Virus record (IMG/VR): IMGVR_UViG_3300008110_000492
Span: 1-45,079 of that record
DNA from: a virus
Reading direction: 5' to 3' (one strand)
DNA: 45,079 bases
Notes under the pieces: generated by a model
What the model was told of the DNA's origin: nothing
The model's input: only the letters and a program-made list of their open reading frames with translations
The model's database searches: none
Program-made: the position numbers and the translations under genes
Shown: piece after piece, positions 2 to 26,483 of the stretch
Layout: every line of letters begins with the position of its first letter
How positions within the stretch are numbered: position 1 is the first letter of the stretch

Positions 2-2608
2 AGTAGCGGCAGTGCAATGGGCGGTGGCGGCGGCGGTGGAGCAGCAGGTGGCGGCGGTGCAATGGGTGGTGGTGGCGGAATGGTCCAAGCGGTTGTTCCG
101 CCGCCACCGATCATTGGAATGGGTGGTGGCGCAGTATCCCGACCGACTGTTCAACCGACGCCGAGCATTGGAATGGGTGGTAGCCGTATGGCCGGAGATG
201 CTGTACAGCAAATCGTAGGAACTGGCAAAATTTCTGGTCAAGATATCCGAGATCTCCGTGATGCAGGGATTAGTAACCAAAGAATTGGAAATTTAATCGA
301 GAATCGTGGGGCTGGTAATAATGCATCTACCGTAGCCAATCAATTTGGAATAAATATTCCAGGTAGTGGAATGGGCGGTGGGATGAGTGGTGGAGCAGCA
401 GGTAGTGGAGCAGCAGGCGGTGGGGCAGCAGGTGGTGGAGGAGGTGGCGGCGGAGCAGCGGGCAGCAACATTGTCACAAATATCCCAACTCAAAGTCTCG
501 ATTTACAAACACTTCTTTCTGCTCTTAACACGCAGCAAAGTCAACAAGATCTTCTTTTTGCATCTCAACTAGATAGACAAAATTCTGAATACTTTACTGG
601 GCAAAGTCTGCGCCAGATTGAGGCGCTTGGCGCAGAGAATCGCCTAACAGAAAGGGTTCAAGGTGAAGAGCAACGTGCTGGGTTTGCCGCACAAGGTGCG
701 CAACAGCGTCTAGGAATCGAAGCCACTGGGGCGCAAGAACGCAAAACACAGCAAGAACGCTTTATTGGTGAGGCAGGCCTTATTGGTGCACGCGGTTTTG
801 AAGAACGCCTAGGAATTGAAACGACAGGAGCTCAGCAGCGCCTCACACAAGCTGATTTATTAGCTGGACAAAGAGAGCAAATTATTGAAACAGGAGCTCA
901 GCAGCGCCTGACACAAGAAGAGCTCCTTGCGGGTCAAGAACGGCAAATTGGATTAACTGGAGCACAAGAACGTCAGACGCAAACAGAACGTTTTGCTGGT
1001 GAAACAGGACTTATTGGTGCACGCGGCATCGAAGAACGTCTTGGGATTGAGACCACTGGAGCACAACAACGTCGAACACAAGAAGAGCTCCTTGCTGGAC
1101 AAGAACGGCAGATTGGTTTAACTGGCCGAGAACAGCGGGCCACTCAAGCTGAACTTCTTGCCGGACAAGAACGACAAATTGATTTAACTGGAGCACAAGA
1201 ACGTCAAACCCAGCAAGAACGTTTTGCGGGTGAGACAGGACTTATCGGTGCACGTGGGATTCAAGAACGTCTTGGGATTGAAACCACTGGGGCGCAACAG
1301 CGCCTAGGAATTGAAGCTACTGGAGCACAGGAACGTCAAACCCAGCAAGAACGTTTTGCTGGCGAAACAGGACTTATTGGCGCACGCGGAATTCAAGAAC
1401 GTCTAGGCATCGAATCCACTGGTTTACAACAGCGTTTAGGTATTGAAGCTGCTGGTTTACAGGAACGTCAGACACAGACAGAGCGTTTTGCAGGTGAAAC
1501 AGGGCTTGCTCGTATTCGCGGTGAAGAAGAGCGGCGTGGGATTGAGACTACCGGAGAACAACAACGCCGGACACAAGCCGATTTACTTACAGGTCAAGAA
1601 CGGCAGATTGGTTTAACCGGCGAACAGCAGCGTCTTGGGATTGCAGCTACAGGCCGTGAAGAAAGAGCTACACAGCAAGAACGTTTTGCAGGTGAAACAG
1701 GTTTAACTCGTGTTCGCGGTGAAGAAGAGCGTGCAGGAATTGCGGCCACTGGCCGAGAGCAACGCGCCACACAGGCAGAACTGCTTGCTGGACAAGAGCG
1801 ACAAATTGGGCTAACCGGACGTGAAGAACGCCTAGGTATTGCAGCACGTGGACTTGAAGAGCGTTTAGGTATCGCTACTACTGGGCAAGAACAACGTGCT
1901 ACTCAAGCCGAACTTCTTGCCGGACAAGAACGGCAGATAGGCTTAACAGGCCGAGAGCAGCGGGCCACTCAAGCTGAACTTCTTGCTGGACAGGAACGGC
2001 AGATTGGTTTAACTGGACGAGAGCAACGTGCTACCCAAGCTGAACTACTTGCCGGACAAGAGCGACAGATCGGTCTAACCGGACAAGAAGAACGTCTGGG
2101 CATTGCAGCACGTGGACTTGAAGAGCGTTTAGGTATTACCACTACAGGCCGAGAGCAGCGGGCCACTCAAGCTGAACTTCTTGCCGGACAAGAACGTCAG
2201 ATTGGTTTAACCGGTGAGCAACAACGACTCGGAATTGCAGCTACTGGAGCACAAGAACGTCAGACGCAAACAGAACGTTTTGCTGGTGAAACAGGACTTA
2301 TTGGTGCACGCGGTGTTGAAGAGCGCCTAGGCATCGAAACTACTGGAGCTCAACAGCGGCAAACACAAGCTGATTTACTTGCCGGACAAGAACGTCAGAT
2401 TGGCTTGACGGGAGAGCAAGAGCGTGCAACACAGCGTGAACGGTTCGCTGGCGAAACAGGTCTCACTCGTGCTCGCGGCGAAGAAGAGCGTGCTGGAATT
2501 CGTGAAACCGGCAGTGAGCAGCGGCAAACCGGCTTGCAGCAAGAGATGTTCAGGCGCTATAAAGAAGAGCGTGATTATGAGCAGGCTCAGCGCCAGTACC
2601 GAGTATGA
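2..2608 (+). CDS. Very long hendecad-repeat protein (5' truncated by window edge)
   Basis: The reading frame is open to the left edge, so the start is outside the window; the first internal ATG is at 17. Counting from that ATG, residues 1-60 and about 115-150 are runs of Gly/Ala/Met, with a small helical patch between them. From about residue 205 to 845 the protein is almost entirely a 22-residue unit made of two 11-residue halves, for example QERQIGLTGRE then QRATQAELLAG, alternating with variants such as QQERFAGETGL and ARGIEERLGIE. An 11-residue period fits a right-handed coiled coil or a surface-lying amphipathic helix as in LEA-type proteins. The stop overlaps the start of the terminase small-subunit candidate by ATGA. 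Role unknown; a virion shaft or internal virion protein is my inference. I recognise no enzyme domain. Confidence 0.8.
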   Translation, partial: SSGSAMGGGGGGGAAGGGGAMGGGGGMVQAVVPPPPIIGMGGGAVSRPTVQPTPSIGMGGSRMAGDAVQQIVGTGKISGQDIRDLRDAGISNQRIGNLIENRGAGNNASTVANQFGINIPGSGMGGGMSGGAAGSGAAGGGAAGGGGGGGGAAGSNIVTNIPTQSLDLQTLLSALNTQQSQQDLLFASQLDRQNSEYFTGQSLRQIEALGAENRLTERVQGEEQRAGFAAQGAQQRLGIEATGAQERKTQQERFIGEAGLIGARGFEERLGIETTGAQQRLTQADLLAGQREQIIETGAQQRLTQEELLAGQERQIGLTGAQERQTQTERFAGETGLIGARGIEERLGIETTGAQQRRTQEELLAGQERQIGLTGREQRATQAELLAGQERQIDLTGAQERQTQQERFAGETGLIGARGIQERLGIETTGAQQRLGIEATGAQERQTQQERFAGETGLIGARGIQERLGIESTGLQQRLGIEAAGLQERQTQTERFAGETGLARIRGEEERRGIETTGEQQRRTQADLLTGQERQIGLTGEQQRLGIAATGREERATQQERFAGETGLTRVRGEEERAGIAATGREQRATQAELLAGQERQIGLTGREERLGIAARGLEERLGIATTGQEQRATQAELLAGQERQIGLTGREQRATQAELLAGQERQIGLTGREQRATQAELLAGQERQIGLTGQEERLGIAARGLEERLGITTTGREQRATQAELLAGQERQIGLTGEQQRLGIAATGAQERQTQTERFAGETGLIGARGVEERLGIETTGAQQRQTQADLLAGQERQIGLTGEQERATQRERFAGETGLTRARGEEERAGIRETGSEQRQTGLQQEMFRRYKEERDYEQAQRQYRV

Positions 2609-3090
2609 TTTCGTGGCTTGAAACCCTAACCGATAAAGATCGGGAGGTTTTTCTTAACTTCTGCAAAAGGACGAACTCACCCGTTCAGATGTACCTGTAT
2701 GCCAGATTTCTTGGTTTTACAGGAGGCATTATTGAGTGCGACGAATGGGCAAATCGCAAGCATAAAAAACGCGATTTCAGTGCTCTATTGGAGGACGAGA
2801 TCGATTCTATGCAACAGGATATTTTAAAATTACGCGAAGCCATTGACATGGGGATGGTTAAGCAAGATATGGGCACTGCTCGAATTGCTATGTTGCAGAA
2901 GGAATTACGCGGAACTATTAAACAACTAAGTGACGAGCGCGTCTTGTTAGATAAACAAGGTTTGATTCTCGCTGGTGCCGATAGAGCTTTGCGTGAAATG
3001 TTATCGATTTTCCGTGATGATCCTATTGAAGGGCCGCTCACTGAAGCCTCTATGGGCGTCTGGACTAAAATCCTACAAGAAGAGTCGTAA
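2605..3090 (+). CDS. terS: Terminase small subunit candidate
   Basis: 161 residues. The start codon overlaps the previous stop (ATGA), indicating translational coupling. The N-terminal 55 residues could form a helix-turn-helix (around SPVQMYLYARFLGF), followed by a long helical, probably coiled-coil region at residues 60-130. This layout, and the position directly before the large terminase gene, fit the DNA-recognition subunit that selects genome ends for packaging. There is no sequence signature that proves it, so the call rests mainly on position and architecture. Confidence 0.55.
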   Translation: MISWLETLTDKDREVFLNFCKRTNSPVQMYLYARFLGFTGGIIECDEWANRKHKKRDFSALLEDEIDSMQQDILKLREAIDMGMVKQDMGTARIAMLQKELRGTIKQLSDERVLLDKQGLILAGADRALREMLSIFRDDPIEGPLTEASMGVWTKILQEES

Positions 3091-3131: not shown

Positions 3132-4655
3132 GTGGCCGGAACAAGTCTTTATTCAGTTTATAGGCGTACGGCGCGAGCAGCAGCTCAAAAGCGAGTAGTT
3201 AAACAAACTAGTAGCGTCGATATTGCGCGGGCACGTACGGATTTTGCTTATTTTTGTGATGTAGTCGGAGACAAACCGCCGGCAGCCCATCACCTTGAAT
3301 GGCACAAGCACTTATGTACTGATGAAGACTCGGTCTGCCTAAAAGGTATTGCTGGCCCAAACATAGATATTCTTGCCCCACGTGGTAGCGCAAAATCCAG
3401 TGTTTTAGGTTTATTCACTGCCTGGACTATTGGCGTGCACGCGCTGCATAAAATGCCGTTGAAGATTCTTTATATTTCGTACACAATTGATGTTGCACGC
3501 CCAAAAAGTGCAGCGATCAAAAGAATTATTGAAGAGAGTAAAACTTATAACGAAATTTTCCCAATGGTTAAAATTGCCAAAGGGATTAACTCTAACGAGT
3601 ATTGGAGCATTGATTGGAAATTCGCTGGAATTAAATCAACCGGTGAAGAGGAATTTACTGTTTGTTGTGCAGGCTTGAAAGGCGCTGTGACCTCTAAGCG
3701 TTCACATCTTTGTATTATTGACGACATCTGTAAATCTGCTGACGAAATTAAAAATAGAGATATTCGAACAGCAATGGAAGATAACTGGAATTCCGTTATT
3801 GTTCCAACTATGTTCGAAGGTGGTCGCGCTATCTGCTTAGGTACGCGTTTCCGGCATGATGATATGCACGGCACCACCTTTATTCCAGCTAATGATTGGG
3901 TCCAACTGGTGCAGTCGGCGATTGTTGTTGATCAGGAAGGTGAAGAAATCTCCTATTGGCCCGACATGTGGTCTTTAGAGTATCTGCAAGATCGACGACG
4001 ACAAGCGCCAATTGCTTTTAGTTTCCAGTACCAAAACCAAATTGTACAAACTAGTGAGCTGTCGCTCTCACCTGACTTAATTGTGAAGGGCACAATTGCC
4101 ACACAATTTGATGCCATGGGGGTTGGTGTTGATCTTTCTGCTGGTGTTCGAGAGCAGAATGATTACACCGCGTTCGTGATGGGTGGTCGCGTCAAAGATA
4201 AAATTCACATCATCGACTGTAAACGAATCCGTATTATGGGTAACCTAGAAAAGCTGGAAGCCCTTATGGAGATGATGGAGGAGTGGGGCGTCATCCATAA
4301 GGATGGCGGGCGGTATTTCCCCACTGGAAGCAATATCGATATCTGGTCAGAGGCTGTTGCCTACCAAGCCTCGTTAGAAGCTGATTTTAAACGAATCTGT
4401 CTTGGTGACCACGGACTTTATAATATGCACTGGCATGCGGTCAAAGGTTTTCGGGGAGATAAGGTTGCACGCTTCCGTGGAATCATGGGCTTGTTCGAGC
4501 AGCGTAAGTTAATTTTCAATAAATATCGACGGTTCGGGCCGTTAACAGATGAGATCATTAATTTTGGTGTTAGCTCCCATGATGACACAGTCGACGCATT
4601 GGTATGGCTTTGCAACGGTCTGATGACACGTGGCAAATTGGAGCTAGCGTTTTAA
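3132..4655 (+). CDS. terL: Terminase large subunit (packaging ATPase/nuclease)
   Basis: 507 residues. It pumps DNA into the prohead and cuts it. The Walker A-like motif APRGSAKSS lies near residues 82-90, Walker B CIIDDI near 194-199, and the C-terminal RNase H-like nuclease shows the first acidic motif GVDLSAG near 332 and the late motif SHDDTVDAL near 482-490. The length is normal for TerL. The start is a GTG preceded by a GAAAGGA-type ribosome binding site. An earlier start is not available close by, and the first ATG comes far into the ATPase domain. Downstream are a small AbrB-like gene and the portal gene, the usual packaging order. Confidence 0.93.
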   Translation: MAGTSLYSVYRRTARAAAQKRVVKQTSSVDIARARTDFAYFCDVVGDKPPAAHHLEWHKHLCTDEDSVCLKGIAGPNIDILAPRGSAKSSVLGLFTAWTIGVHALHKMPLKILYISYTIDVARPKSAAIKRIIEESKTYNEIFPMVKIAKGINSNEYWSIDWKFAGIKSTGEEEFTVCCAGLKGAVTSKRSHLCIIDDICKSADEIKNRDIRTAMEDNWNSVIVPTMFEGGRAICLGTRFRHDDMHGTTFIPANDWVQLVQSAIVVDQEGEEISYWPDMWSLEYLQDRRRQAPIAFSFQYQNQIVQTSELSLSPDLIVKGTIATQFDAMGVGVDLSAGVREQNDYTAFVMGGRVKDKIHIIDCKRIRIMGNLEKLEALMEMMEEWGVIHKDGGRYFPTGSNIDIWSEAVAYQASLEADFKRICLGDHGLYNMHWHAVKGFRGDKVARFRGIMGLFEQRKLIFNKYRRFGPLTDEIINFGVSSHDDTVDALVWLCNGLMTRGKLELAF

Positions 4656-4714
4656 CTCTGGATATGAACAGAGATAAAGTATTTTGGATCTAAACTAAAA
4701 AGGTCCTATTCCCA

Positions 4715-4897
4715 ATGTCCACCAGCTATTACACCTTAGAGCTTGAGCAGGATGCCTACGGCTCTGCCGTCATTCCTCTGCCAGACGAACTGTGTCACGA
4801 CATGGCGCTCCAACCTAATGAGCGATTTGAAGTCGAAGTGGAGGATGACACCATCACGCTCAAACGCGTTGCTGCTGGCTACGATATTGAACAATAA
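4715..4897 (+). CDS. AbrB/SpoVT-like swapped-hairpin small protein
   Basis: 60 residues. The sequence VIPLPDELCHDMALQPNERF followed by EVEVEDDTITLKRV has the layout of an AbrB/MazE-type swapped-hairpin fold: strand, LP-D-E-L turn, helix cap, then two strands. These usually bind DNA as dimers, as antitoxins or transition-state regulators. No toxin gene is next to it. It sits between terL and the portal gene, so it could regulate late genes or simply be carried there. A second protein of the same type is encoded at 41892-42098 on the other strand. Confidence 0.6.
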   Translation: MSTSYYTLELEQDAYGSAVIPLPDELCHDMALQPNERFEVEVEDDTITLKRVAAGYDIEQ

Positions 4898-4917
4898 GCT
4901 GAATTCCCAGATTGACC

Positions 4918-7176
4918 ATGAGCGATAGTAAAAACGTTCTAGATTCTATGCTCAAGGCGGTCATTTCCCGCGATGGTAGCGATCAAACCGATACCATGCT
5001 GGTAAATGCCCACCTCTCCCAAATGAAGATGTTTGGGGTGCGTCAGGGTGTTGAGTTCTACCCAGCCCAAGATAACTTGGGCACACAGCGATCTGATTTT
5101 ATTCAGCAGGTCATCAAGTTTAATAAACTGGATGCTCGTCTGGACTCGATCTGGGATCGCTTTTTGGCCTATGGTAAAGGTCTTTTTTATATTCGACCGA
5201 CTAAGAAAACATATCGACTCTACTGGTTCGATAAAGATGCGTATCGAACTTACTACTCTACAGAGGGAGATTTAGAAGAAGTCATCATTATTTATCCGTA
5301 CAAAGTAAAGTCTACGAAAGGCTTTCAAGGTGTTGGTTTAAGTACGGATAAACGTTATATGCGTCTTCGTATTACAGCGACTGAAATTGAAGAGTTCCAC
5401 AGCGAACAAGAAATTTCTTTCGACATGCCGTCACTGGAAGCTGGCGCTTTCGAAAAGAAGACCGTTGTCAACAGCATGGAATTTATTCCATGTGTGGAAG
5501 TATTTAACAATCCAGATGCTTTTGGCACCGAAGGTAGCGGTGAATTTGATTGGATGGCTAACCAGATCATCGCTCACGATGAAATGGTTAAAAACATTCG
5601 AGCAAACCTTTCATTTTTCGGCAATCCCACATTACTCTCTTCCAGGCCAAAGCAAGATATTGTCGAGAGTAACGACACCGATGTAGCACAGCGCCCCAGT
5701 ATTTCCAGTCAGTCTGGATTCCAGTCTGAGTTTTTCTTATCCAGTTCAACCTTTAAGCAGGATAACGTCACACGGCAGCCTCCAGGCTATATCGGAAAGC
5801 CTGGCTCCGGCATGCGCGTACCTCGAGTCATCGCGAACCTGGAGCCAACAGATCGTGTCGGTTTTATCACCCCAAACGCAGTTAGCACAGATCAGGCGCG
5901 GTATGCAGAACAGCTTCGTAGTGAAATTCGCTTAGCACTTGGTGGCATTGATGATTTAAGCATCACCAACGTAACTGCAACCGAGATCAAATCGGCTTAT
6001 GGACGTGTCAGTGCTACAGCCAAGAAGAAATGCTTGATGCTCTATACATACGGCATTTGCCGTTGCTTCGAATTAATGATCTTCCAGGAAGAGCAAATCT
6101 TCCGTAAATCATTGGCATACTCACTGGGTATTAAGTATCCAATTCCTCCCGAAGATACAGAGGACGAGGCTGCTGTAACTAAGTACGAAAAACAGTTGGT
6201 AACTTATGAGAAGAAACTTCAAAAAGCTCTAGATGCTGTTATCGAGAACCGCGAGATTCCCAGTGGCGTTTTAGGTCTTGCCCCAGACGGTGATCGTGCT
6301 GTTATGTGGCGCTGGATGGGACCTGTATACGAAGATACGGCACAAGATAAACTTAACCAATCTATCTTCACGAGGAACCTACAGGAATTAGGGGTTGATA
6401 GCATTGAAGCACTGAAGTATTTATTCCCTTCTAAAACGGATGATGAAATCGCGGGGATGCTCTCCGGTTTCCCATTCCGAATGGTAGGGGAAGTACAGAG
6501 GGCCTACTCAGCATTTATTGATCTAATCAATCAAGAAATGCGAACACCACATCCACAGCAACCGAATTTACCGATGGCTGCGGATCCGAGATTAGATCTC
6601 ACTCCCTTCCTTTACCGAACACTCGAAAGCCTACAAAAAGAGGTAACTTATGCAGGCCGATACCGCAATGCCGACCCAATCGGCACCCCAAGCATCCCCG
6701 ATCCAGCCGAGCAGCTACGGGGCTCCGGTGGCGCAGACGGCGGCACAAGCGCCAACGGTTTCAACGACGTCCCAATGGGTGGCGCCCTACCAGCAAGCGG
6801 TGGCCCCAGCCCCGCAAATGCAGGCCCAGATGGGGGTCAATCCGTACCTGTCAACCCCTACAGCGTCATACCCCCAAGCGTACCAGGCAGCCCCACAAGC
6901 GGAGAACCCTTACAAGGAGGCGTTCAACAAGGTAGTGGGGCTCCTGAGTTCGCCCGTCCAATTCCCGTTCCAGGGTCAACAGTACAGTCAGAACCAAGCC
7001 TACGACCAGGCCAATTACGCTTCCCAACAGGGTCTCCAGTACAACAATTTGGCGACGGAGACCTATACGCCTTCGAACAACAGCAGCCAGGCGTATTACA
7101 ACGACTATTCCCAAACTTCTCCGGTAATAACGGAGGAAATGCTGCTGGACAACGGGGTAAGCGAGCAAAGTCTTGA
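4918..7176 (+). CDS. Portal protein with long overprinted C-terminal tail
   Basis: 752 residues from ATG 4918; a TTG six bases upstream is possible. The dodecameric portal forms the DNA gate at one capsid vertex. The assignment rests on position after terL, length, a helix-rich clip/stem region with AVSTDQARYAEQLRSEIRLAL around residues 325-345, and a conserved-looking ATEIKSAYGRVSATAKKK stretch that resembles the stem helix of other portals. From about residue 577 on, the protein becomes Pro/Gly/Ser-rich and disordered, and its DNA is also read in another frame by the next gene for 527 nt. The true stop is at 7176, but how much of the tail is functional is unclear. Confidence 0.8.
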   Translation: MSDSKNVLDSMLKAVISRDGSDQTDTMLVNAHLSQMKMFGVRQGVEFYPAQDNLGTQRSDFIQQVIKFNKLDARLDSIWDRFLAYGKGLFYIRPTKKTYRLYWFDKDAYRTYYSTEGDLEEVIIIYPYKVKSTKGFQGVGLSTDKRYMRLRITATEIEEFHSEQEISFDMPSLEAGAFEKKTVVNSMEFIPCVEVFNNPDAFGTEGSGEFDWMANQIIAHDEMVKNIRANLSFFGNPTLLSSRPKQDIVESNDTDVAQRPSISSQSGFQSEFFLSSSTFKQDNVTRQPPGYIGKPGSGMRVPRVIANLEPTDRVGFITPNAVSTDQARYAEQLRSEIRLALGGIDDLSITNVTATEIKSAYGRVSATAKKKCLMLYTYGICRCFELMIFQEEQIFRKSLAYSLGIKYPIPPEDTEDEAAVTKYEKQLVTYEKKLQKALDAVIENREIPSGVLGLAPDGDRAVMWRWMGPVYEDTAQDKLNQSIFTRNLQELGVDSIEALKYLFPSKTDDEIAGMLSGFPFRMVGEVQRAYSAFIDLINQEMRTPHPQQPNLPMAADPRLDLTPFLYRTLESLQKEVTYAGRYRNADPIGTPSIPDPAEQLRGSGGADGGTSANGFNDVPMGGALPASGGPSPANAGPDGGQSVPVNPYSVIPPSVPGSPTSGEPLQGGVQQGSGAPEFARPIPVPGSTVQSEPSLRPGQLRFPTGSPVQQFGDGDLYAFEQQQPGVLQRLFPNFSGNNGGNAAGQRGKRAKS

Positions 7177-7743: not shown

Positions 7744-8175
7744 ATGGCAGCCCAAAAGAGTAGTGCTAGAGCACGAGCTGAGCAATTTCTGATTAATGTA
7801 GGAACTGCAGGTGGGCCGGTCGGATCAGCAGCTCTGTATACTTTTGGCGCTGCTAACTTAGCCTCTCAAGCGCAGGCTGGTAGAGTTGACCAGTATGCAG
7901 CAATGCGTGACGCTACTGCCGGTCGTGTGATTGGCACGACAAATGCACCCGCACCTGCGATGCCGCGAGACCTCGATAGTGCTTACTTGAAGTTAAATCT
8001 TCCAGGATCTCCGTTACCGGGCAATGCGTTGCTTTCGGCTCAAAATCAAAGTGCTGCTGAAGTGACGCAGAATAATATCCTCACAAATGAGCAATATGCA
8101 CGTTTGCAGGGAATGCCAGCGCTTGGAATGTTATCTATGGGTTTGTTAGCCGCCAACAACTCTAAAAAAGGTTAA
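7744..8175 (+). CDS. Hypothetical Ala-rich protein before the capsid genes
   Basis: 143 residues, rich in Ala, Gln and Asn. The N-terminus is basic and helical, there is a small hydrophobic Gly/Ala segment near residues 25-45, and a second Met/Leu/Gly-rich segment near the C-terminus (MPALGMLSMGLLAANN). No family recognised. Its place between scaffold and capsid genes suggests a minor virion or internal head protein. Confidence 0.65.
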   Translation: MAAQKSSARARAEQFLINVGTAGGPVGSAALYTFGAANLASQAQAGRVDQYAAMRDATAGRVIGTTNAPAPAMPRDLDSAYLKLNLPGSPLPGNALLSAQNQSAAEVTQNNILTNEQYARLQGMPALGMLSMGLLAANNSKKG

Positions 8176-8180
8176 AAGTA

Positions 8181-8444
8181 ATGAAAAAAGAAAAAGCCGT
8201 TAAGAAAGCTAAGGCGCGTAAACAGCAGGCTGGGGCACGCACTCTTGAGCTTGAGGCTGCTCTTCAGATGGCGCAAGCGCAACTAATTGATCCTGAAATC
8301 CAAGCAGAACGAGTGGATATGCAGCCAGCAGATGGCTACGTCAATCCATATCGTGCACTTGGTTACATGGCTCCAATGGCTTATTCCCCTGGCAACATGA
8401 TCAGTGGCTATAACTTTGGTCAGATGGTGAATCCGGAAGCTTAA
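8181..8444 (+). CDS. Small basic protein, Lys-rich N-terminus
   Basis: 87 residues. The first 15 are nearly all Lys/Ala (MKKEKAVKKAKARKQQ), then comes a helix, then a Tyr/Met/Gly/Pro-rich tail. It starts five bases after the previous stop behind AAAAGTA. The basic N-terminus suggests DNA contact inside the head. Function unknown. Confidence 0.65.
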   Translation: MKKEKAVKKAKARKQQAGARTLELEAALQMAQAQLIDPEIQAERVDMQPADGYVNPYRALGYMAPMAYSPGNMISGYNFGQMVNPEA

Positions 8445-11175: not shown

Positions 11176-11655
11176 ATGCAACTCGATAACTTCCTCAAGT
11201 CTAAAGTTCGCTGGCACCTTGGTTATAACACCACGTCTATTCCGGCAGGTGACTTAGCGCGTCTTGAAGAAGCTGTCAACAACATCCCAGATTCGTTCTG
11301 GTATTCGAAAATTGTCGAACAAGTCAGTCGGTGCGACGAAGCTGAAAAGCGCACTGACATGACTGGAAGTGTGAACAACAATACTGTTCCCAGGAGTCGT
11401 ATCGAAAGCATAGCCGGTGACGTCGATCGTACGATTGCAACCTCTGATTTTAGAGACACGCTGAAAACCTGGACGGCAATTTACCTATACGAGACGGATC
11501 GATTAGCCCTACATTTGTATGTTCCGAATTACCGAAACCCCGAGCAAGCCCGGTATCGGTTTAATCGCGAAGGTGCTGAATTTATTCAAGCCCTTCCAGG
11601 CCCTGCCGACGTCGCTGTTGGCACTCGCCTTATGCTCTCAAACGATTTCCGTTAA
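11176..11655 (+). CDS. Putative head-tail connector protein
   Basis: 159 residues, mixed helix and strand. N-terminal helices (LDNFLKSKVRWHLGY, residues 3-17) resemble the start of small gp6-type head-completion proteins, but no diagnostic motif is present. Its position after capsid genes and before tail-associated hydrolases supports a connector or neck role. The 3' end overlaps the upstream part of the next frame but not its likely start at 11678. Confidence 0.5.
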   Translation: MQLDNFLKSKVRWHLGYNTTSIPAGDLARLEEAVNNIPDSFWYSKIVEQVSRCDEAEKRTDMTGSVNNNTVPRSRIESIAGDVDRTIATSDFRDTLKTWTAIYLYETDRLALHLYVPNYRNPEQARYRFNREGAEFIQALPGPADVAVGTRLMLSNDFR

Positions 11656-11677
11656 CGCCAAGCAGTCTAGTTCTGTC

Positions 11678-12274
11678 ATGTCGCAGTTAAATCCACAGCA
11701 AATTGCGGACCTGTTAAAACAACAAGGATTCCCGCAGGACAAGATACCGACGATGACTGCCATTGCAATGGCGGAATCAGGAGGACGCACGCAGGCATTC
11801 AATCCCGAAGGACTTGACAAATCTTATGGATTGTTTCAAGTCAACATGCACGGTGGACTTGGACCTGCACGGATGAAGCAGTTTGGCCTTCAAAAAGAGA
11901 GCCAGTTATTTGACCCAACAACTAACGTCAAGGCTGCTAAACAAATTTTAGGTAGTCAGGGTCTTGGCGCTTGGTCAGTTTATAAAAGCGGCAAGTACAA
12001 AGAATTTTTACCCCAAGCACAGCAAGCCGCACAGGCTACACAAGCTACGCCGCAGCAACCACAGCAACAACCACAAGATGTAGCAGCTGTACCAGGTGGC
12101 CGCACTTTTATTTTGTTTGGAGGCGTGCAACCACAGGTCGACCCCAAAGAGAATTTAGATCGATTCATTTTAAAGACTATTCTTAATCCAGATACACCAA
12201 AAATAGATGCAGGTCTGAATTCTCTTGCTCTGCTAACTAAAGCTTTTGGTTTAGACCAAGCACCGCAGTATTAA
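11678..12274 (+). CDS. Virion-associated lytic transglycosylase with Gln linker and shared tail
   Basis: 198 residues from ATG 11678; the frame is open further upstream inside the previous gene, but this ATG begins a complete domain. Residues 20-115 form a lysozyme-like SLT domain: MTAIAMAESGGRTQAFNP with probable catalytic Glu33, then SYGLFQVN and a C-terminal helix. A linker of Gln/Ala/Pro (residues about 117-140) leads to a C-terminal tail of about 60 residues starting TFILFGGV. The same kind of tail ends the next protein. It would cut peptidoglycan locally during DNA entry. Confidence 0.75.
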   Translation: MSQLNPQQIADLLKQQGFPQDKIPTMTAIAMAESGGRTQAFNPEGLDKSYGLFQVNMHGGLGPARMKQFGLQKESQLFDPTTNVKAAKQILGSQGLGAWSVYKSGKYKEFLPQAQQAAQATQATPQQPQQQPQDVAAVPGGRTFILFGGVQPQVDPKENLDRFILKTILNPDTPKIDAGLNSLALLTKAFGLDQAPQY

Positions 12275-15861: not shown

Positions 15862-18159
15862 ATGCCCTTTGGTGTAGGCGGATTCTCTAAATCAAAGGGC
15901 AGCCCTTTTAGTGGGAAGCTCGATAAGAAATTTTCTAGTCTCACAAAATTTAACGGAACAGATAAAAGAGCGGAAATTGAAAATCCGTTTGACCCGTCAC
16001 TTTCTCCAGATATTGAGAGTGAAGTGCGGTTTTACAACCATGATTCATTGTGGGCTCGCTGGCGGCGCGGTTACGAGCTTTATTCAATCACACAAAGTGC
16101 TTTGGGTTCAAGTGATGTTGAGCGGCCTGTTAGAGGCGACTATCGACTTTATTTCTCTTTTCAGCAATATCCAGGAGTTTTTGTTCCAGCACGTTTATTC
16201 ACCTATCCGTCAACAAATCAAGACATTGGAGAGCAACTTGTTGGTATGCGCGATACCAATTCGTTCACTTTCTATGATTATGGGCTTCCAATTCTTAGTG
16301 TACGTTATTTAGGCGTCGCAGCACAAGCAACATACGTTCAGAGCGGTACTACAATCACTGTTACCAGTCCTGATCATGGCCTGTTCCCAGGAGATGACGT
16401 TTATTTAGCATTTTTATCAGGCACTTCCGTAAACGATACGCTTACAATCACCGAAAGAACACAAAATACCTTCACGATCACTGCTGTAGCTTCGCTGACA
16501 ACAAGTGGAAACGTTGCTTATGCCATTTCGACAGCATTTACAGACACACGCTGGCGCTTTATTCGAGTTGCATTAAGGTTTTTACCTGCTGAAACAGCAT
16601 TATTGCCTGGTGAACGAATGACAGATCGTGTAATTGAGCGCGATCTAGGTATTACAGCTACTTACAGCCGTACAGGGTCAACTGTAACCATTACCTGCGC
16701 CGAAAATCACGGTCTTTCCACTGGCAATACAATTTATTTAGACATTGAGACAGGACTTGTTTCCTCTGGACGCTACGAAGTCACTGTTATTAGCGCGACC
16801 GTACTCGAAATTACAACAATTACGAGTGGCTCAACTTCAGGTGCTGCTACAGTCAGCCGTCTTCTCCGTGGATTCAATTATTTAGATTATGTTGGCTATA
16901 CCGTCACTGGATCGGACGCTACTACAAATGAATTAATTTTTCAAAGAGACGATAGTTACGCAGCAAAAACTACAGATGGAATTACAGCAACAGTTGTCCC
17001 TGCACACAGAGGATTTCAAGTCGGCAGGTATCTGACAACTGAATTACGTTGGCAGTGTTCTTGTGAAGATTTCAGTAAGCGAGATAATTACAACTTATAT
17101 AGTCAACTTAGGCAGCGTAGGTTCCCTCAGACACAACTAGCAAATTTAAAGCCAGGGCGCATCTTAAATCCTGATGGTACTTTTACAGAGACTCGCGATT
17201 CTCCCGGCGTTTTTCAAGATATTGGCTATACGACAATAAATAACTTTTACCAGCTGCCTGAATATGAAGATGTCGAGCGGTTTTCATTCCAAAACTTGCT
17301 TTACTACCAGATGCGCTGGTGTAAGCACATTTACGCTTCAATGTGGGCATTGATCCATGACGAAGGTGGCGGGACCATCTCAATTAACGCACGCTACGAA
17401 CAATCCGGGCCAAATATTACTGTTACTGCGCCTAATCACGGACTTTTGGCTAATAGGCGTATTCAGATCGACTTTACAAGCGGCAATGCAATTGAGGGAG
17501 AGTACACGATAACAAGTGTGCCATCTAAAGATACATTTACAATTGTCTATCCATTTGCCGATACAACATCAGGGTACTGCACGGTATCTAATTTAAAACC
17601 ACACGAATATGTAAACACTTGGTTGTTAGAACCTAGTGACCAACCTGTAGGAACTGGATTAGAAACGTTCTATAAAAATTTTGATCGTGAGAGTCAACGT
17701 TTGAAAGAAGTGACCGAGCGTTATGTTTTTGATTCGCAAAATTTAGGCTGGGCTGGAAGTCAAGTAGTTATCGGTGCGGGCAATAATCCAGAACAGGCTG
17801 CAAACTTTGGTCCAGCACTGACAACAATGGTCTTAACTGACAATATTCGACGCGATGGGGAAGGTAAATTAAGTCGGATAGGTATTGTAGCAAATAGTAC
17901 AAACCGTTTTACAGGTTTAGTCAATAAGTTATTTAATCTAGATCCTAAAATTATTCAGGGAGCTAAATTCGGTTTTCTTGATAAGCCGTTAAGTGAATAT
18001 ACTAGTGAATTTGAGTTTGGATTTGTTGACGGTGGGGAGTACCGTAACGGCGTTCCGCTCGAGAATGTAGATACACTTGTCCAAATCGAGGCAGAAACGT
18101 ACAGTCCTGTAACAGTCTTGGATACAATAGTCGATGCGAGCCTTTACATTAATAGTTAA
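15862..18159 (+). CDS. Large tail structural protein with three HGL-type beta inserts
   Basis: 765 residues. The core contains aromatic-rich stretches (LWARWRRGYELYSITQSA, about residues 54-71; SFQNLLYYQMRWCKHIYASM, about 475-494). Three copies of a roughly 68-residue beta domain are inserted near residues 156-223, 266-332 and 509-577. Each starts with a Tyr-x-x-Ser/Thr-Gly strand, has a HGL-x-x-G/N turn (DHGLFPGD, NHGLSTGN, NHGLLANR) and ends with TSG-type strands. A baseplate, tail-tube or tail-tip function fits. No enzymatic motif is seen. Confidence 0.7.
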   Translation: MPFGVGGFSKSKGSPFSGKLDKKFSSLTKFNGTDKRAEIENPFDPSLSPDIESEVRFYNHDSLWARWRRGYELYSITQSALGSSDVERPVRGDYRLYFSFQQYPGVFVPARLFTYPSTNQDIGEQLVGMRDTNSFTFYDYGLPILSVRYLGVAAQATYVQSGTTITVTSPDHGLFPGDDVYLAFLSGTSVNDTLTITERTQNTFTITAVASLTTSGNVAYAISTAFTDTRWRFIRVALRFLPAETALLPGERMTDRVIERDLGITATYSRTGSTVTITCAENHGLSTGNTIYLDIETGLVSSGRYEVTVISATVLEITTITSGSTSGAATVSRLLRGFNYLDYVGYTVTGSDATTNELIFQRDDSYAAKTTDGITATVVPAHRGFQVGRYLTTELRWQCSCEDFSKRDNYNLYSQLRQRRFPQTQLANLKPGRILNPDGTFTETRDSPGVFQDIGYTTINNFYQLPEYEDVERFSFQNLLYYQMRWCKHIYASMWALIHDEGGGTISINARYEQSGPNITVTAPNHGLLANRRIQIDFTSGNAIEGEYTITSVPSKDTFTIVYPFADTTSGYCTVSNLKPHEYVNTWLLEPSDQPVGTGLETFYKNFDRESQRLKEVTERYVFDSQNLGWAGSQVVIGAGNNPEQAANFGPALTTMVLTDNIRRDGEGKLSRIGIVANSTNRFTGLVNKLFNLDPKIIQGAKFGFLDKPLSEYTSEFEFGFVDGGEYRNGVPLENVDTLVQIEAETYSPVTVLDTIVDASLYINS

Positions 18160-18161
18160 CG

Positions 18162-18587
18162 ATGGCTGTTCAGATTCTTTCAAGACGTTCATCTATTGCC
18201 TTTGACAGGCCTTTTCCGATTCGCCTAGGTAATGCAGAACTAGCAATTAATTTCAATTCTGCTGATCCTGGCCTTTATTTTGCGGATAACGTAGCGGCAC
18301 CTTCCACAAATTTAATAAAAGTTGGGCCTACTTTTATCGGTGCTACAGCGCCCAATACTCCAGCTACTGGCTTTAGCTTATTCAGTAAAGGCGAATCTTG
18401 GCTAGATACATCAAGTACACACATTCAAAAACTGTATGATGGGAGTACGTGGCAAACGCCAAAAGCTGTTTCTTCTATTGGTGACGGTAAACCGGTTAAC
18501 CCTGTTGACGGGCAACTTCATTACGACAAACTAATTCCTGGACTTTTCATATACGACTTAACGACGGCTTCTTGGATTGCTACTTAA
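18162..18587 (+). CDS. Fibre/tail adaptor-like protein
   Basis: 141 residues, starting three bases after the large structural gene. LGNAELAINFNSADPGLYFA and LIKVGPTFIGATAPNTPATG, then GESWLDTSSTHIQKLYDG, are the pattern seen at the N-terminus of cyanophage fibre or tail-attachment proteins (a G-E-x-A-I-N / E-P-G-L-Y-F module followed by a W-L-D-T module). It probably mounts a fibre or is a short fibre itself. It ends exactly against the stop of the opposite-strand gene. Confidence 0.65.
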   Translation: MAVQILSRRSSIAFDRPFPIRLGNAELAINFNSADPGLYFADNVAAPSTNLIKVGPTFIGATAPNTPATGFSLFSKGESWLDTSSTHIQKLYDGSTWQTPKAVSSIGDGKPVNPVDGQLHYDKLIPGLFIYDLTTASWIAT

Positions 18588-18836
18588 TTAGCGGCCGTGA
18601 TTTAAGATGTGATCTAATATACGATCTAATTTTAAATGGACAGCTTGGACCTCGCGCAGAAAATCTTCCTTCAGTACATAGTTTTGTATTACACGGTCTT
18701 GCAAACTGTCAATCTCTCTTTCTAAATTGCCAAAACGTGTTTCTATCTTTTTATTGAAGTTTGACAACGCTCTCGAAAGGCCAGCAAAAGCGCCTGCGCT
18801 TCCGGATAATACAGCTACAATCAGTTCTGGAGTCAC
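18588..18836 (-). CDS. Small membrane/coiled-coil protein, holin-like candidate
   Basis: 82 residues, GTG start. One hydrophobic Gly/Ala segment at residues 4-20 (ELIVAVLSGSAGAFAGL) is followed by a coiled coil (IETRFGNLEREIDSLQDRV) and a helical tail (LREVQAVHLKLDRILDHIL). It resembles small cyanophage proteins of one membrane helix plus coiled coil, some of which are suspected holins or spanin-like proteins. It is alone on the minus strand inside the virion block, tail-to-tail with the previous gene. Confidence 0.6.
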   Translation of the reverse strand: MTPELIVAVLSGSAGAFAGLSRALSNFNKKIETRFGNLEREIDSLQDRVIQNYVLKEDFLREVQAVHLKLDRILDHILNHGR

Positions 18837-18840
18837 TGGC

Positions 18841-19109
18841 GCATTTTAACTTCTTCTTCTATTTTAAGGTAAAAAAGCACTACAATTCAAACTTGTTCTG
18901 TTTGATGCTGCTGAAATTAGTACACGCAGTAGGCACCTAACGCAGTAAGTGTGGGCAGTGGGACCCGGTCAGTCATCACGATGGCGAATTTGGTGGAACA
19001 GCCTAGGCTTTTTTAGGGCGAAGCACCTAATGGATAGGAAAAGTATGCAGTGCAGCCTAAAAATTCAGTGAGGGTTTAGGCGTAGAATATGTAAATAGTT
19101 AAAGCAGTT
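18841..19109 (+). other. Intergenic leader before the fibre gene, structured
   Basis: About 270 nt without a coding frame I can support. It holds the direct repeat GCACCTAA (twice), a 10-base palindrome AGCCTAGGCT followed by TTTTTT, and a 7-bp hairpin GCCTAAA / TTTAGGC roughly 30 nt before the fibre ATG. It must also hold the promoter for the minus-strand gene ending the previous block. It could be a structured 5' untranslated region or a small RNA. No tRNA fold was found. Confidence 0.45.
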
Positions 19110-21455
19110 ATGGCTACACAAGTACAGTTTCGCCGTGGTACTACAGCTGACATCTCCACATTTATAGGTGCTGATGGAGAAGTTGTTGTTGACACTACAA
19201 AAAAAACTTGCGTTGTTCATGACGGTGTTAAGATAGCTGGTTATCCACTGCTGCGTGAAGATGGGTCTAACAGCGCTCTGAATGTGGGTAGTCTATCCAG
19301 CTGCGCGTTAAAATTTATTAATGATCCAAATACCGGCATCATTAGCCCCGGAGCAGATCAGATTGCGTTAGTTACAGGAGGAGCTTCTCGGCTTAGTGTT
19401 GATTCTTCGGGTTCTGTAACAATCCCTGGCAACTTGCTGGTCGCTGGCGCTTTTACTGGTACCATTACTTTGGATAATGGTAGTGCTGCAGTTCCAGCGC
19501 TCCGTTTTACTAATGATCCAGACACAGGAATATACTTAGCCGGTACAAACGAAGTAGCCATCAGCACTGGCGGCACGCAACGGCTGACTACAACCACAAC
19601 AGAAGTCACATCAACGTTACCTGTACTTCATCCGCTTGGAGCCGCAGCTACTCCAAGTCTTACTTTTACCGGCGATACAAACACCGGCGTCTACTCCCCC
19701 GGTGCAGACCAGTTAGCTATCTCTACGGCAGCGACCGAGCGCGCGCGGTTCGACGAGTCAGGCAGGTTGCTGGTCGGAACATCTAGCGCCATTGCCGCCG
19801 CGCCTTTACTGCAGATTGAACAAATCGCAGGTGCTGAAATTGTACTGGGGCGCCAAGATACTTCTGTCGTTGCTGATGACCTCATTGGCAGTATCAGTTT
19901 TTGGGGCCGTGACACGTCTGGGGTTGCTTACACCGAGCAAGGGTCGGTTAAGTGTTTTGCAGATGGCACTCACGATCCCGGTACGAATCCAACAAGGCTA
20001 GTGTTTTCTACCACCGCTGACGGAGCCGCAAGTCCGACGGAGCGGATGCGCATCGATAGCGCAGGTCAAATCGAAGCAGGTTCTCTTGGTACCGCCGCAG
20101 CACCTGTTTGGTCTTTCCTTGCTGATCCCAACACCGGCATTTACGCCCCTGGCGCAGACCAAGTAGCCATCAGCACTGGCGGCACACAACGGCTGACTAC
20201 AACCACAACAGAAGTCACATCAACGTTACCTGTACTTCATCCGCTTGGAGCCGCAGCTACTCCAAGTCTTACTTTTACAGGCGATACAAACACCGGCCTG
20301 TACTCCCCCGGCGCAGACCAAGTAGCCATCTCGACTAATGGCACTGGGCGGTTGTTTGTTGATGCGAGTGGGAATGTTGGAGTAGGATCAGTATCTACAT
20401 CCTCATTCCAGTCTGCATCGTCTACAGTATTGTCTTTAAGAGATACTGCCAGTAGCAATATTGCTTCATTGAAAGTACTCGGTGGCGCAGGCGCAGGCGC
20501 TATTGCAGAGTACGGAGCAACAAACGGCATTGGTTTTTGTGGCACTAGCGGCGCTCACGACTTTGTTTTTTATACAAACTCCAGCGAGCGGATGCGCCTG
20601 GACTCCAGTGGCCGCTTGGGGCTGGGGACTTCTGCGCCTGGAGCAGTATTAGAGTCCAAGACGGCAAACGTACAATCGGGCGATGCGGCGTACGCCAAAA
20701 AGGCCGTCATAACTAACATTCCTTATTCAACCAGCAACGTCACTTCTTCGGCGTTAGCAATTTACGACGGAACTATTCATGCCGCAGACATTGGCTATTC
20801 CTACGATGGCACTGGTTATTATTTAACGTTCGGCACTAACGACAACACGATTGGCGCTCCGATTGAAAGTCTGCGTATTGACCGCTCAGGGCGAGTAGGG
20901 GTGGGCACTGCGAGCCCTGGGACTGCACTTGATGTAAATGGTGTTATTACATCGAGGAGTGATTCATTTGCTGCTGTTCGTTTTAGAAGTTCTACCGGTA
21001 CTGACAAAGCTTTCTTGAGCTACGAAGATGGAAGCACATCCGTATTCCTAAACAACTATGGATCTGGTCCCATTGTTTTCAAAACTGCCGATGCTGAACG
21101 CGTCCGCATCGACAGCTCAGGGCGTGTAGGCATAGGGACCAGTAGCCCACAGGCTCTTCTTGATATTACAGATACAGGTAATCAACCCAAGCTGCGGCTA
21201 AGTACTAACACAGCTTCAAATTTTCTTGAAATTAGCCGATCCTCCAGTACAGGTCATTACACTTTTGCGTCCGAAGAAAATGGATCCAGCATTATTTTTG
21301 CCACTGATCCCGATGGGACAGGTGCACAAAACAGGGTCACGATAGATCGCTACGGGAAAGTAGGGATTGGCAACAATTCTTGGCTCAACGGCAAACACAA
21401 ACATCAAGATGGGCGGGAACATGACTGTTTCTGCCGGTGGAGTTCTTGGTTTTAA
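19110..21455 (+). CDS. Tail fibre, N-terminal part (frame breaks near 21.37 kb)
   Basis: 781 residues, of which roughly the first 755 look genuine. The N-terminus (VQFRRGTTADISTFIGADGE) matches fibre or appendage proteins that begin with a Gln-Phe-Arg-Arg-Gly-Thr strand. The rest is built from repeats of FTNDPDTGIYLAGTNEVAIS and MRIDSSGRVGIGT types, the usual shaft units of phage fibres with a self-cleaving chaperone. The last residues after KVGIG turn into basic, His/Trp-rich sequence unlike the shaft, which marks a frame change. The natural continuation is in the next reading frame (21367-22320). Confidence 0.8.
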   Translation: MATQVQFRRGTTADISTFIGADGEVVVDTTKKTCVVHDGVKIAGYPLLREDGSNSALNVGSLSSCALKFINDPNTGIISPGADQIALVTGGASRLSVDSSGSVTIPGNLLVAGAFTGTITLDNGSAAVPALRFTNDPDTGIYLAGTNEVAISTGGTQRLTTTTTEVTSTLPVLHPLGAAATPSLTFTGDTNTGVYSPGADQLAISTAATERARFDESGRLLVGTSSAIAAAPLLQIEQIAGAEIVLGRQDTSVVADDLIGSISFWGRDTSGVAYTEQGSVKCFADGTHDPGTNPTRLVFSTTADGAASPTERMRIDSAGQIEAGSLGTAAAPVWSFLADPNTGIYAPGADQVAISTGGTQRLTTTTTEVTSTLPVLHPLGAAATPSLTFTGDTNTGLYSPGADQVAISTNGTGRLFVDASGNVGVGSVSTSSFQSASSTVLSLRDTASSNIASLKVLGGAGAGAIAEYGATNGIGFCGTSGAHDFVFYTNSSERMRLDSSGRLGLGTSAPGAVLESKTANVQSGDAAYAKKAVITNIPYSTSNVTSSALAIYDGTIHAADIGYSYDGTGYYLTFGTNDNTIGAPIESLRIDRSGRVGVGTASPGTALDVNGVITSRSDSFAAVRFRSSTGTDKAFLSYEDGSTSVFLNNYGSGPIVFKTADAERVRIDSSGRVGIGTSSPQALLDITDTGNQPKLRLSTNTASNFLEISRSSSTGHYTFASEENGSSIIFATDPDGTGAQNRVTIDRYGKVGIGNNSWLNGKHKHQDGREHDCFCRWSSWF
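19552..19711 (+). repeat. 160-nt direct repeat, copy 1 (in fibre gene)
   Basis: Nearly identical to 20161-20320, with about six mismatches. The two copies are 609 nt apart, a multiple of three, so recombination between them would delete or duplicate 203 residues in frame. Confidence 0.85.
20161..20320 (+). repeat. 160-nt direct repeat, copy 2 (in fibre gene)
   Basis: Second copy of the repeat at 19552-19711. Both encode the EVAIS/QVAIS-TGGTQRLTTTTTEVTS unit and the following FTGDTNTG unit of the fibre shaft. Confidence 0.85.
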
Positions 21456-22320
21456 TACAAACGGCTCCGAACGTGCCCGCATTGACAGCTCGGGACGCCT
21501 GTTAGTTGGCACGTCTACGAGCCCCACGGTTGGCGATGCTCAGTACGGCTTGCTGAGAACCCAGGGCAACACAAGTACTAGCTCAGGATTTGGTCTTCTT
21601 TCTATTGCAAGAGGACTTGCCCCAGCATCAATTACTTCTGGCGCGGAAATTGGATACATCCATTTTACTGCCAATGATGGATCTCCATTTGCAAGGATCG
21701 AGTGCAGTGCTGATGCAAACGCTGGAGTAAATGACTACCCAGGCCGCCTAGTGTTCTCCACTACCGCCGACGGAGCGAGCAGCCCGACGGAGCGGATGAG
21801 GATTGAATCAACTGGGCGTACTGGTACTTATGCTTCAGCAGCGGACGGTTTTCAAGTCAGCTCTAATGCTGCCGCTGGCACTACCTACGCCAACTTTGTT
21901 GGCAGATTTGATGGTGGGGCACCGTTTGGTGGAACTATTTCGGTTACAATCTGGAATAACGGCAACATCCAGAATACCAATAATTCTTACACAGCTATTT
22001 CCGACATTAAACTGAAGGAGAACATTGTCAATGCCAACTCTCAGTGGGATGACATCAAAGCTCTTCAGGTCCGCAACTACAATCTCAAAGAAGGCCAAAC
22101 CCACCGGCAAATCGGCCTAATCGCCCAAGAGGTTGAGCCAATTAGCCCTGGATTGGTTTACGAATCCCCTGACCGCGACCCCGAAGGCAACGACCTTGGC
22201 ACCGTCACCAAGAGCGTCAACTACTCCGTGCTCTACATGAAGGCTGTCAAGGCGCTGCAGGAAGCAATGGATCGCATCGAAGTTCTAGAGCAGCGTCTCA
22301 CGGATGCTGGTATCGCCTAG
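21367..22320 (+). CDS. Tail fibre C-terminal part with S74 intramolecular chaperone
   Basis: 317 residues, opening at a TTG inside the end of the upstream fibre frame. It continues the same shaft repeats (SERARIDSSGRLLVGTS). From about residue 205 it has an intramolecular chaperone/peptidase S74 domain: SDIKLKENIVNANSQWDDIK, then RQIGLIAQEVEPISPGLV, and a final coiled coil (MKAVKALQEAMDRIEVLEQR). These domains trimerise the fibre and cut themselves off at the Ser-Asp start. There is no ribosome binding site before the TTG. I read it as the second half of one fibre of about 1070 residues. Confidence 0.8.
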   Translation: MATILGSTANTNIKMGGNMTVSAGGVLGFNTNGSERARIDSSGRLLVGTSTSPTVGDAQYGLLRTQGNTSTSSGFGLLSIARGLAPASITSGAEIGYIHFTANDGSPFARIECSADANAGVNDYPGRLVFSTTADGASSPTERMRIESTGRTGTYASAADGFQVSSNAAAGTTYANFVGRFDGGAPFGGTISVTIWNNGNIQNTNNSYTAISDIKLKENIVNANSQWDDIKALQVRNYNLKEGQTHRQIGLIAQEVEPISPGLVYESPDRDPEGNDLGTVTKSVNYSVLYMKAVKALQEAMDRIEVLEQRLTDAGIA

Positions 22321-24216: not shown

Positions 24217-25470
24217 ATGAAAACAACTGATCCTGGTATAAACCTTATTAAAACATTCGAGGGTTTTAGTGTAAATAGCTATTTATGTCCAGCAAATGTT
24301 TGGACTATAGGTTATGGACACACCGGACCTGAAGTAAAAGAGGGAATGCGTATTACAGAAGCCGAAAGTCAAGCAGTATTAAAAAAAGATCTAGCACGCT
24401 TCGAAAAAATTGTAGAGGACAACGTCAAAGTTGAACTAAACCAGAACCAATTTGATGCTTTAGTTAGTTTTGTTTTTAACGTCGGTGGTGACGCTTTCAA
24501 AAAATCGACATTATTAAAGAGGCTTAATAGCAAAGAGGATCTAAATACTGTTGCAAAAGAAGAGCTGCCACGCTGGAATAAGGGAGACGGCCGTGTATTA
24601 GAAGGTTTAAAGCGTCGTCGCAACGCTGAAGTTGATCTATTTACGGCGCCAGCACCTGAATTGAAAACGGGCGCTGTTGACCTTACCTCAAAACAATTGA
24701 CTTTTGTCAAGAAGTTGATAAAACCTTCGGCCGAACTTTTGGCTGACGAAAAAGCTAAGATCAATGCTAATCGACGTATCCCACAATGCCGGATTTTAGA
24801 GCGTAAAGATAAACATACGCTTGTAGAGCTTGGTTATGGAATGGGAACATGGTGGTTATTTGATGATCACTGGAGTGGCTTGAAAACAGATACAAGCGTA
24901 AAAGTATATGCTACTGATGGTGATTTACGGTATTTGAGGAACTTTCCTTATTTCTACCAACGTGATAATGGCCCTGAAGGCTGGCGCCAGTGCCAAACCA
25001 GTGCCATCGCCATGTGTTTAAAATACATCGATGTGCCTGGAATTAAAGATGATCTGGACTACTTGAAGATTGTCAGCAAACACGGCGATACGATCTACCA
25101 GCAGACTCATATCGATTCTCTCGAAGAGTTGGATGTTTACGCTAAATTTACAAAATCAGCAAATGCAGATGACATCAAACAGCAAATCGACAAAGGACTC
25201 CCTGTTGTTGCCGGCGTTCTTCATCATGGAGCTGTCTCTCGTCCTTCTGGCGGCGGCCACTACATCGTTATTACTGGATATAGCAAAGATTATTGGCTAG
25301 TTCAGGACCCATACGGAGAGATTGATCTTGTTAATGGCGGTTGGACACGTCAAGGACCGACCGCTGGTAAAAATCAAAAGTACAGTTTTAAAAACCTAAA
25401 TCCGCGACTTTTTGTCAGTGGTGGCGCAGATGGATGGTGCTGGCTAAACTTTAGGATCAAAGCGAATTGA
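24217..25470 (+). CDS. Two-domain endolysin: GH24 lysozyme plus C39-like peptidase
   Basis: 417 residues. Residues 5-145 form a T4-type GH24 muramidase with the triad Glu15, Cys24, Thr30 in the usual E-8-C/D-5-T spacing (IKTFEGF and WTIGYGHT). Residues about 185-230 look like a small SH3-like wall-binding segment. Residues 245-400 match a C39-like papain-fold peptidase: Cys259 in WRQCQTSAIAM, His348 in GGHYIVITGY, Asp364 in VQDPYGEIDLV. The protein has no signal peptide, so a holin is needed. A muramidase fused to a C39-type cysteine peptidase would cut both glycan and peptide bonds. Confidence 0.88.
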   Translation: MKTTDPGINLIKTFEGFSVNSYLCPANVWTIGYGHTGPEVKEGMRITEAESQAVLKKDLARFEKIVEDNVKVELNQNQFDALVSFVFNVGGDAFKKSTLLKRLNSKEDLNTVAKEELPRWNKGDGRVLEGLKRRRNAEVDLFTAPAPELKTGAVDLTSKQLTFVKKLIKPSAELLADEKAKINANRRIPQCRILERKDKHTLVELGYGMGTWWLFDDHWSGLKTDTSVKVYATDGDLRYLRNFPYFYQRDNGPEGWRQCQTSAIAMCLKYIDVPGIKDDLDYLKIVSKHGDTIYQQTHIDSLEELDVYAKFTKSANADDIKQQIDKGLPVVAGVLHHGAVSRPSGGGHYIVITGYSKDYWLVQDPYGEIDLVNGGWTRQGPTAGKNQKYSFKNLNPRLFVSGGADGWCWLNFRIKAN

Positions 25471-26327: not shown

Positions 26328-26399
26328 AGCGGATGATCGGGGTCGAACCGACGACAGTCTGCTTGGAAGGCAGGAGCTCTACCACTGAGCTACATCCGC
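26328..26399 (-). tRNA. tRNA-Gly(UCC)
   Basis: Full cloverleaf on the minus strand: acceptor GCGGATG / CATCCGC, D arm with AGCTCAGTGGTAGAGCT, anticodon loop CTTCCAA (anticodon TCC), T arm with GGTTCGACCCC, discriminator U. No CCA is encoded. It reads GGA, a codon favoured by A/T-richer phage genes over GC-richer hosts. Confidence 0.95.
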
Positions 26400-26401
26400 A
26401 A

Positions 26402-26475: not shown

Positions 26476-26483
26476 ATTTCACC

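Follow-up and report, generated by a model that had tools for sequence, protein, structure and literature searches.

Repeats of 11 residues occur in LEA proteins, alpha-synuclein and apolipoproteins, where they form amphipathic helices, and 11 and 15 residues correspond to three and four turns of a helix. These two periods are the pair that has been described for right-handed coiled coils (PMC6131620). Among phage proteins, the DNA pilot protein H of phiX174 forms a helical tube from hendecads followed by heptads (PMC7354561), and the ejection proteins of podoviruses are virion-internal, helical and quick to diverge in size (PMC8954989). Synechococcus phage S-EIV1, which is classified as a podovirus (PMC9382816), is the one isolate of the lineage described here.

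We analyzed a window of 45,079 nucleotides, bases 1–45,079 of an uncultured virus record that is 59,817 bases long; the window opens with a gene for a large hendecad-repeat protein. The gene is a single uninterrupted frame, and its 5′ end is absent because the record itself begins there. Its parts and the genes that follow are:

2..2608, + strand: repeat-protein gene, 5′-truncated at the record start, 868 aa plus stop; complete in relative L004, with 902 aa
2..181, + strand: Gly/Pro-rich low-complexity N-terminal part, variable among relatives
182..355, + strand: small helical domain (GGSRMAGDAVQQIVGTGKISGQDIRDLRDAGISNQRIGNLIENRG...), predicted helices at residues 64–71, 79–87, 92–102 and 108–114
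356..475, + strand: Gly-rich linker
476..592, + strand: conserved entry segment (PTQSLDLQTLLSALNTQQSQQDLLFASQLDRQNSEY), which aligns with the family sequence PTQSLQTQxALNExSxAQQRLNMELGAQLDRTNAEFF
593..2539, + strand: array of 59 in-phase hendecads (residues 198–846) of unit types T, B, C and G
2540..2605, + strand: conserved C-terminal segment QEMFRRYKEERDYEQAQRQYRV, recognizable also in AHV82216 of S-EIV1
2605..2608, + strand: ATGA overlap (4 nt) of the repeat-gene stop and the terS start
2605..3090, + strand: putative small terminase subunit (TerS), from position, size and synteny; 48% identical to its S-EIV1 counterpart
3132..4655, + strand: large terminase subunit (TerL; PHROG 38, Pfam Terminase_6C)
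4912..7176, + strand: virion structural protein resembling a portal (PHROG 20475, with a weak match to the portal family PHROG 64)

Complete relatives were found in IMG/VR (L004, L005, L006, L007 and L008). The L004 protein is identical to the window protein over the common part, and L005 is longer than L004 by 66 aa, so that L004, L005 and L006 span 902–968 aa from the ATG; the L008 version has 990 aa. The identical array is present in L003 and L004, which stem from separate metagenome samples, and an assembly artefact is therefore ruled out. The small helical domain was found in the closest relatives only. The N-termini are mosaic: L007, L008 and L130/L139 have runs of the tetrapeptide (QEAR)n or MAKGGGGKGG starts instead of the MGGG of the window's relatives, and in L007 (from 2864 on) and L008 (from 4791 on) the array is still homologous despite the swapped N-terminus.

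The periodicity of the array is strict. The 59 hendecads are consecutive, with zero insertions or deletions and with conserved Gly, Arg, Gln and Glu, and the 22-residue conserved end segment that follows them (motif QEMFRRYKE.RDY.QAQ.QYR) is still in phase. The self-identity of the window protein is 0.24 at a lag of 11 residues, 0.33 at a lag of 22 and 0.40 at a lag of 44, compared to a maximum over all lags that averaged 0.15, and reached at most 0.18, in 1,000 shuffles. These values corroborate the claim of a first-pass annotation, made from the letters of the window, that more than 600 residues follow an 11-residue period with these four conserved residues. Four unit types can be distinguished, that is, T (TGxxxRxTQxx), B (LLAGQERQIGL), C (RFAGETGLxxx) and G (TGxxxRLGIxx). 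Of the 20 T units, 19 directly precede a B or C unit, a count matched by none of 20,000 permutations, and G units are single 11-mers. The 22-residue unit named in the annotation is therefore the T+B or T+C pair; such pairs are real, but the basic unit is 11 residues, and array lengths differ by single 11-residue steps.

The likeness of the units resides at the protein level and is maintained by selection. The 11 B-type units are encoded by 11 distinct DNA versions (dS 1.23, dN 0.10, omega 0.08), omega across units is 0.08–0.16, indicative of purifying selection, and long DNA matches inside the array are 77–87% identical. The near-identical DNA units that had been described at first sight thus do not exist. 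Because synonymous change is near saturation, recent tandem expansion is ruled out for the bulk of the array, which is old. In the single close pair examined, L004 and L005, the length difference of 198 nt (6 × 33) lies among copies that are about 82% alike, and therefore does not represent a fresh perfect duplication.

Across the family, the repeat core, from the entry segment to the C-terminal segment, ranges from 72 to 776 residues in 11-residue steps, so that the expected length change between related phages was indeed found; members with 98–100% identical TerS differ by up to 165 residues. Core length is 6 mod 11 in 50 of the 56 full-length members, and the distance between a second pair of anchors is 4 mod 11 in all 41 cases. 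The six exceptions to the former rule (L071, L075, L077, L082, L089 and L091) all belong to one subgroup, which also has 15-residue spacings. Family-wide, the spacings of the G-x-[EQ]-x-R motif are multiples of 11 (11, 22, 33 and upward); in 23 cases the spacing is 15, possibly the trace of a single ancient event that was copied repeatedly. The rare spacings of 10 and 12 are adjacent-Gly pairs summing to 22, a single value of 1 is a GG overlap, and spacings of 7 or 18 did not occur anywhere in the family. The period is thus a hendecad and not a heptad, as had been proposed.

AlphaFold2 predictions, which were made for monomers, yielded one helix for a 162-aa member (residues 29–161, mean pLDDT 86.6). 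For the window protein, helices were predicted at residues 164–712 and 717–867, in effect one long alpha helix, in addition to the small helical domain at 64–114, with a mean pLDDT of 55. The pTM was low in both predictions, which is to be expected of a rod. The local hydrophobic moment at 98–103 degrees was lower than in shuffled sequences (z −3.2 to −3.9, values that draw heavily on a few positions copied many times and indicate a direction rather than an exact significance). This result speaks against the amphipathic, LEA-like helix that the annotation had offered as one option: the 11-residue period and the charged and small residues are common to the array and to LEA proteins, alpha-synuclein and apolipoproteins, whereas the amphipathicity is not. 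The other option, a right-handed coiled coil, agrees with the 11- and 15-residue spacings and with the helix predicted throughout, but no clearly hydrophobic a-d-e-h register was found, the best mean being 0.33 versus −0.02 for the rest, at positions 9, 1, 2 and 5 (Thr, Gly, Gln and Glu). Accordingly, the array resembles the right-handed coiled coils of rotary ATPase stalks (PMC6131620) in its 11/15 periods and in helices rich in Ala, Leu, Glu and Arg, but differs from them in showing no hydrophobic a-d-e-h core and in containing 15% Gly. A spectral peak near 164 degrees (p 0.36 when positions were permuted) could reflect a helix that is hydrophobic on two of its faces, or else beta structure. 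A beta reading, including a beta-solenoid, is conceivable but not favored, because 164 degrees is twice 98 degrees (mod 360, mirrored), the peak is not significant and AlphaFold gives a helix. Given the low moment, the lack of a hydrophobic a-d-e-h register and the non-significant peak, neither a coiled coil nor an LEA-like helix is established, and our best guess from the predictions is some form of helix.

The phiX174 H protein is likewise a helical, Gln-rich phage protein with hendecads, and no sequence relation to it was found. However, its hendecads are amphipathic, with a moment of 0.33 versus 0.05 for the window array (98.2 degrees, computed the same way), and the lumen of its tube has N, Q or R at 18 of 23 positions, compared to 39% N/Q/R on the best face of the window array. 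An H-type tube was thus rejected, as both features tested, the N/Q/R-lined face and the amphipathic hendecads, failed.

The TerL, the portal and the putative TerS of the window all point to one cultured relative, S-EIV1, to which the TerL is 62–64% identical. The TerS itself had no family match and was assigned from position and size. Two scans that started from the small-terminase homologue yielded 160 viral contigs, and the locus counts include near-identical contigs. Of these terS-bearing contigs, 156 could be judged, and every one of them has the repeat family immediately before terS. In the first set this was observed in 79 of 80 loci; L055 begins within the gene itself, and two others show just the last 7–8 residues. 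In the second set, 72 loci were matched by a profile of the C-terminal segment, the RDY motif was recognized by eye in five more (L117, L130, L133, L139 and L140), and L125, L131 and L155 have too little upstream sequence for a judgement. The overlap between the repeat-gene stop and the terS start is 4 nt in 74 of 74 loci with a clear start in the window's subgroup. The S-EIV1 subgroup has short forms, mostly of 80–130 aa, at a spacing of +1 or +13 nt from terS. The profile, built from 39 C-termini, had a single match among 483 S-EIV1 ORFs in the 41 kb searched, namely the 82-aa hypothetical protein AHV82216 (E 5.4e-11). AHV82216 shares with the window protein the position before the terS homologue and the C-terminal segment with RDY.QAQ..YR, but it has only one or two hendecad-like units in place of the array, a different N-terminus, and a 1-nt gap instead of the 4-nt overlap.

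Altogether, these proteins form a lineage-wide syntenic family. Its members begin with an N-terminal part that varies, continue with the entry segment and a hendecad array that is phase-locked and very variable in length, and end in the conserved C-terminal segment. The location directly before the terminase genes, as read in the first-pass annotation, is confirmed by the overlap at 2605–2608 and by terL as the next gene; the accompanying remark that such a neighbor of terS is unusual holds in comparison with annotated phages, whereas this arrangement is standard within the S-EIV1 lineage. Family members were also seen on two contigs, L095 and L096, of a Bacteroidetes-labelled MAG (isolate IN_BCD_1), which are probably phage contigs binned with the MAG.

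Searches of Pfam, PHROG and PDB revealed no relatives of the repeat protein, in agreement with the early verdict that it has no enzyme domain, and no significant match to an annotated tail-fiber or tape-measure family was found. PHROG 13568, of unknown function, weakly matched 5 of 24 members (best E 0.00023), which is uninformative on function. Foldseek against BFVD and PDB gave nothing significant. The PDB phmmer matches fall on Gly linkers, and a tblastn match in S-CBWM1 (28%) falls on collagen-like GPxG tandem repeats annotated as tail fiber and is compositional; both were rejected. Some relatives in the phage collection may have been masked by the low-complexity filter that tblastn applies.

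The repeat gene is preceded by a conserved series of genes for small proteins, some of them Gly/Ala-rich and some with membrane segments (for example, 129 aa with a maximal KD of 2.0, and 239 aa with 41% Gly+Ala+Ser). No tape-measure-like gene was found among the head and tail genes examined, and the tail-fiber genes, which match fiber PHROGs, are located at 15862–22320. Two of them, at 19110–21455 and 21367–22320, are overlapping frames, with fiber matches running from one into the other, and a frameshift near 21,400 (from sequencing, decay or programmed) is possible. In L004, a gene at 4385–4786 directly upstream of the repeat gene encodes a SET domain (protein methyltransferase-like, Pfam E 3.7e-11), and the ORF list of the corresponding stretch of L008 has no SET-domain ORF.

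The upstream run of small Gly/Ala-rich or membrane-like proteins, the lack of a tape measure among the head and tail genes examined and the location of the fibers elsewhere fit a short-tailed phage that encodes its internal proteins ahead of terS, and therefore we tentatively favor, at roughly 40%, a virion protein that is internal or ejected and has the array as a helical spacer of tunable length. The protein would be a structural virion component, most likely an internal (ejection or pilot) protein of the kind that a short-tailed phage would need to carry DNA across the host envelope. Its conserved C-terminal segment would bind a partner that stays constant, such as the portal or its neighbors, and the N-terminal part, which varies, would bind one that varies as well. 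Between them, the array would act as a helical spacer that can gain or lose 11-residue (three-turn) steps with no rotation of one end relative to the other, and a thin helix, or an oligomer of helices, could pass the portal channel. This reading is supported by the phase of 6 mod 11 in most members, with the exceptions confined to the subgroup with 15-residue spacings, by the predicted helix, by the purifying selection on the units, by the constant place before terS after the small-protein run, and by the classification of S-EIV1 as a podovirus. Like T7 gp14/15/16 and P22 gp7/16/20, the protein would belong to a short-tailed phage and to an operon with small Gly/Ala-rich proteins, and is size-variable and predicted to be helical. 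However, there is no sequence match to those proteins, tandem hendecads were not found described for them, and neither the repeat protein nor the upstream genes scanned matched a PHROG of gp14/gp15/gp16-like ejection proteins, which counts against ejection. The ten-fold size range also exceeds the spread of 120–138% reported for gp15/gp16-type proteins (PMC8954989). Furthermore, at 1.5 Å per residue the longest helices would reach about 100 nm, more than envelope crossing needs, the 15% Gly and the missing hydrophobic stripe argue against a stable tube, and the pLDDT of just 55 for the window protein weighs against a helical spacer. It is conceivable, if rather doubtful, that the protein is an evolvable spacer, probably a DNA-delivery part, whose helix length is reset by 11-residue quanta over the ten-fold range and tuned to the host, while the relative rotation of the ends stays constant.

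The main rival to an internal or ejected virion protein is a packaging accessory that acts with TerS and, as a helical adaptor, connects TerS/DNA, TerL and the portal, the array being a flexible arm. We consider this possible but not likely: the C-terminal segment, encoded next to terS, is the conserved part and may serve packaging instead, every informative locus in both subclades has the gene immediately before terS, and the invariant 4-nt overlap in one of the subclades probably couples translation, but overlapping genes are commonplace in phage operons, the gap in the S-EIV1 clade is +1 or +13 nt, and packaging motors are conserved in size whereas the repeat protein is not. We know of no comparable TerS partner. 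The helix prediction, the polar composition and the position in the head module would also suit a scaffold or internal core protein, that is, helical rods that organize the procapsid or a portal-associated core and may stay in the head; as scaffold genes usually lie between the portal and capsid genes, where this virus has small unassigned proteins (7744–8444), and as phages whose TerS proteins are almost the same differ strongly in the length of the repeat protein, we regard it as unlikely.

Quick change of length and of the N-terminal part is usual in host-facing proteins, and the array could set the reach of a surface fiber or appendage whose C-terminal segment is fixed to the capsid or tail. 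This is improbable, as the genes with fiber matches are elsewhere, the repeat gene lies before terS, and its product has neither a beta-structured tip nor a receptor-binding domain. A tape measure that sets tail length is very improbable: the protein is a long helical repeat protein and weak Foldseek matches name tape measures, but their E values (5 and 9.9) are not significant, the gene is outside the tail module, the podovirus S-EIV1 has the 82-aa version only, and the closest relatives differ in length as described above.

The repeat family is seemingly carried by all members of a cyanophage lineage that is widespread in fresh water and in the sea, and yet it is absent, save for one weak match, from the profile libraries searched, and its only isolated relative is an unremarkable hypothetical protein. 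If the protein is part of the virion, the combination of a strict 11-residue beat and labile length would be a natural experiment on the helix length permitted in a phage, and a way to ask whether helix length tracks the thickness of the host envelope or is neutral.

Several further features of these genomes were observed. The TerL of S-EIV1 (L013, 16081–18621) is about 340 aa longer than that of the window, and the extra part looks intein-like by eye. The window contains three peptidoglycan-hydrolase genes, at 11519–12274, 24217–25470 and 28322–29098, with an SLT-type enzyme, a Phage_lysozyme joined to a Peptidase_C39-like domain, and a second Phage_lysozyme. Adjacent genes for tRNA-Gly(tcc) and tRNA-Leu(taa) are located on the minus strand at 26328–26476.
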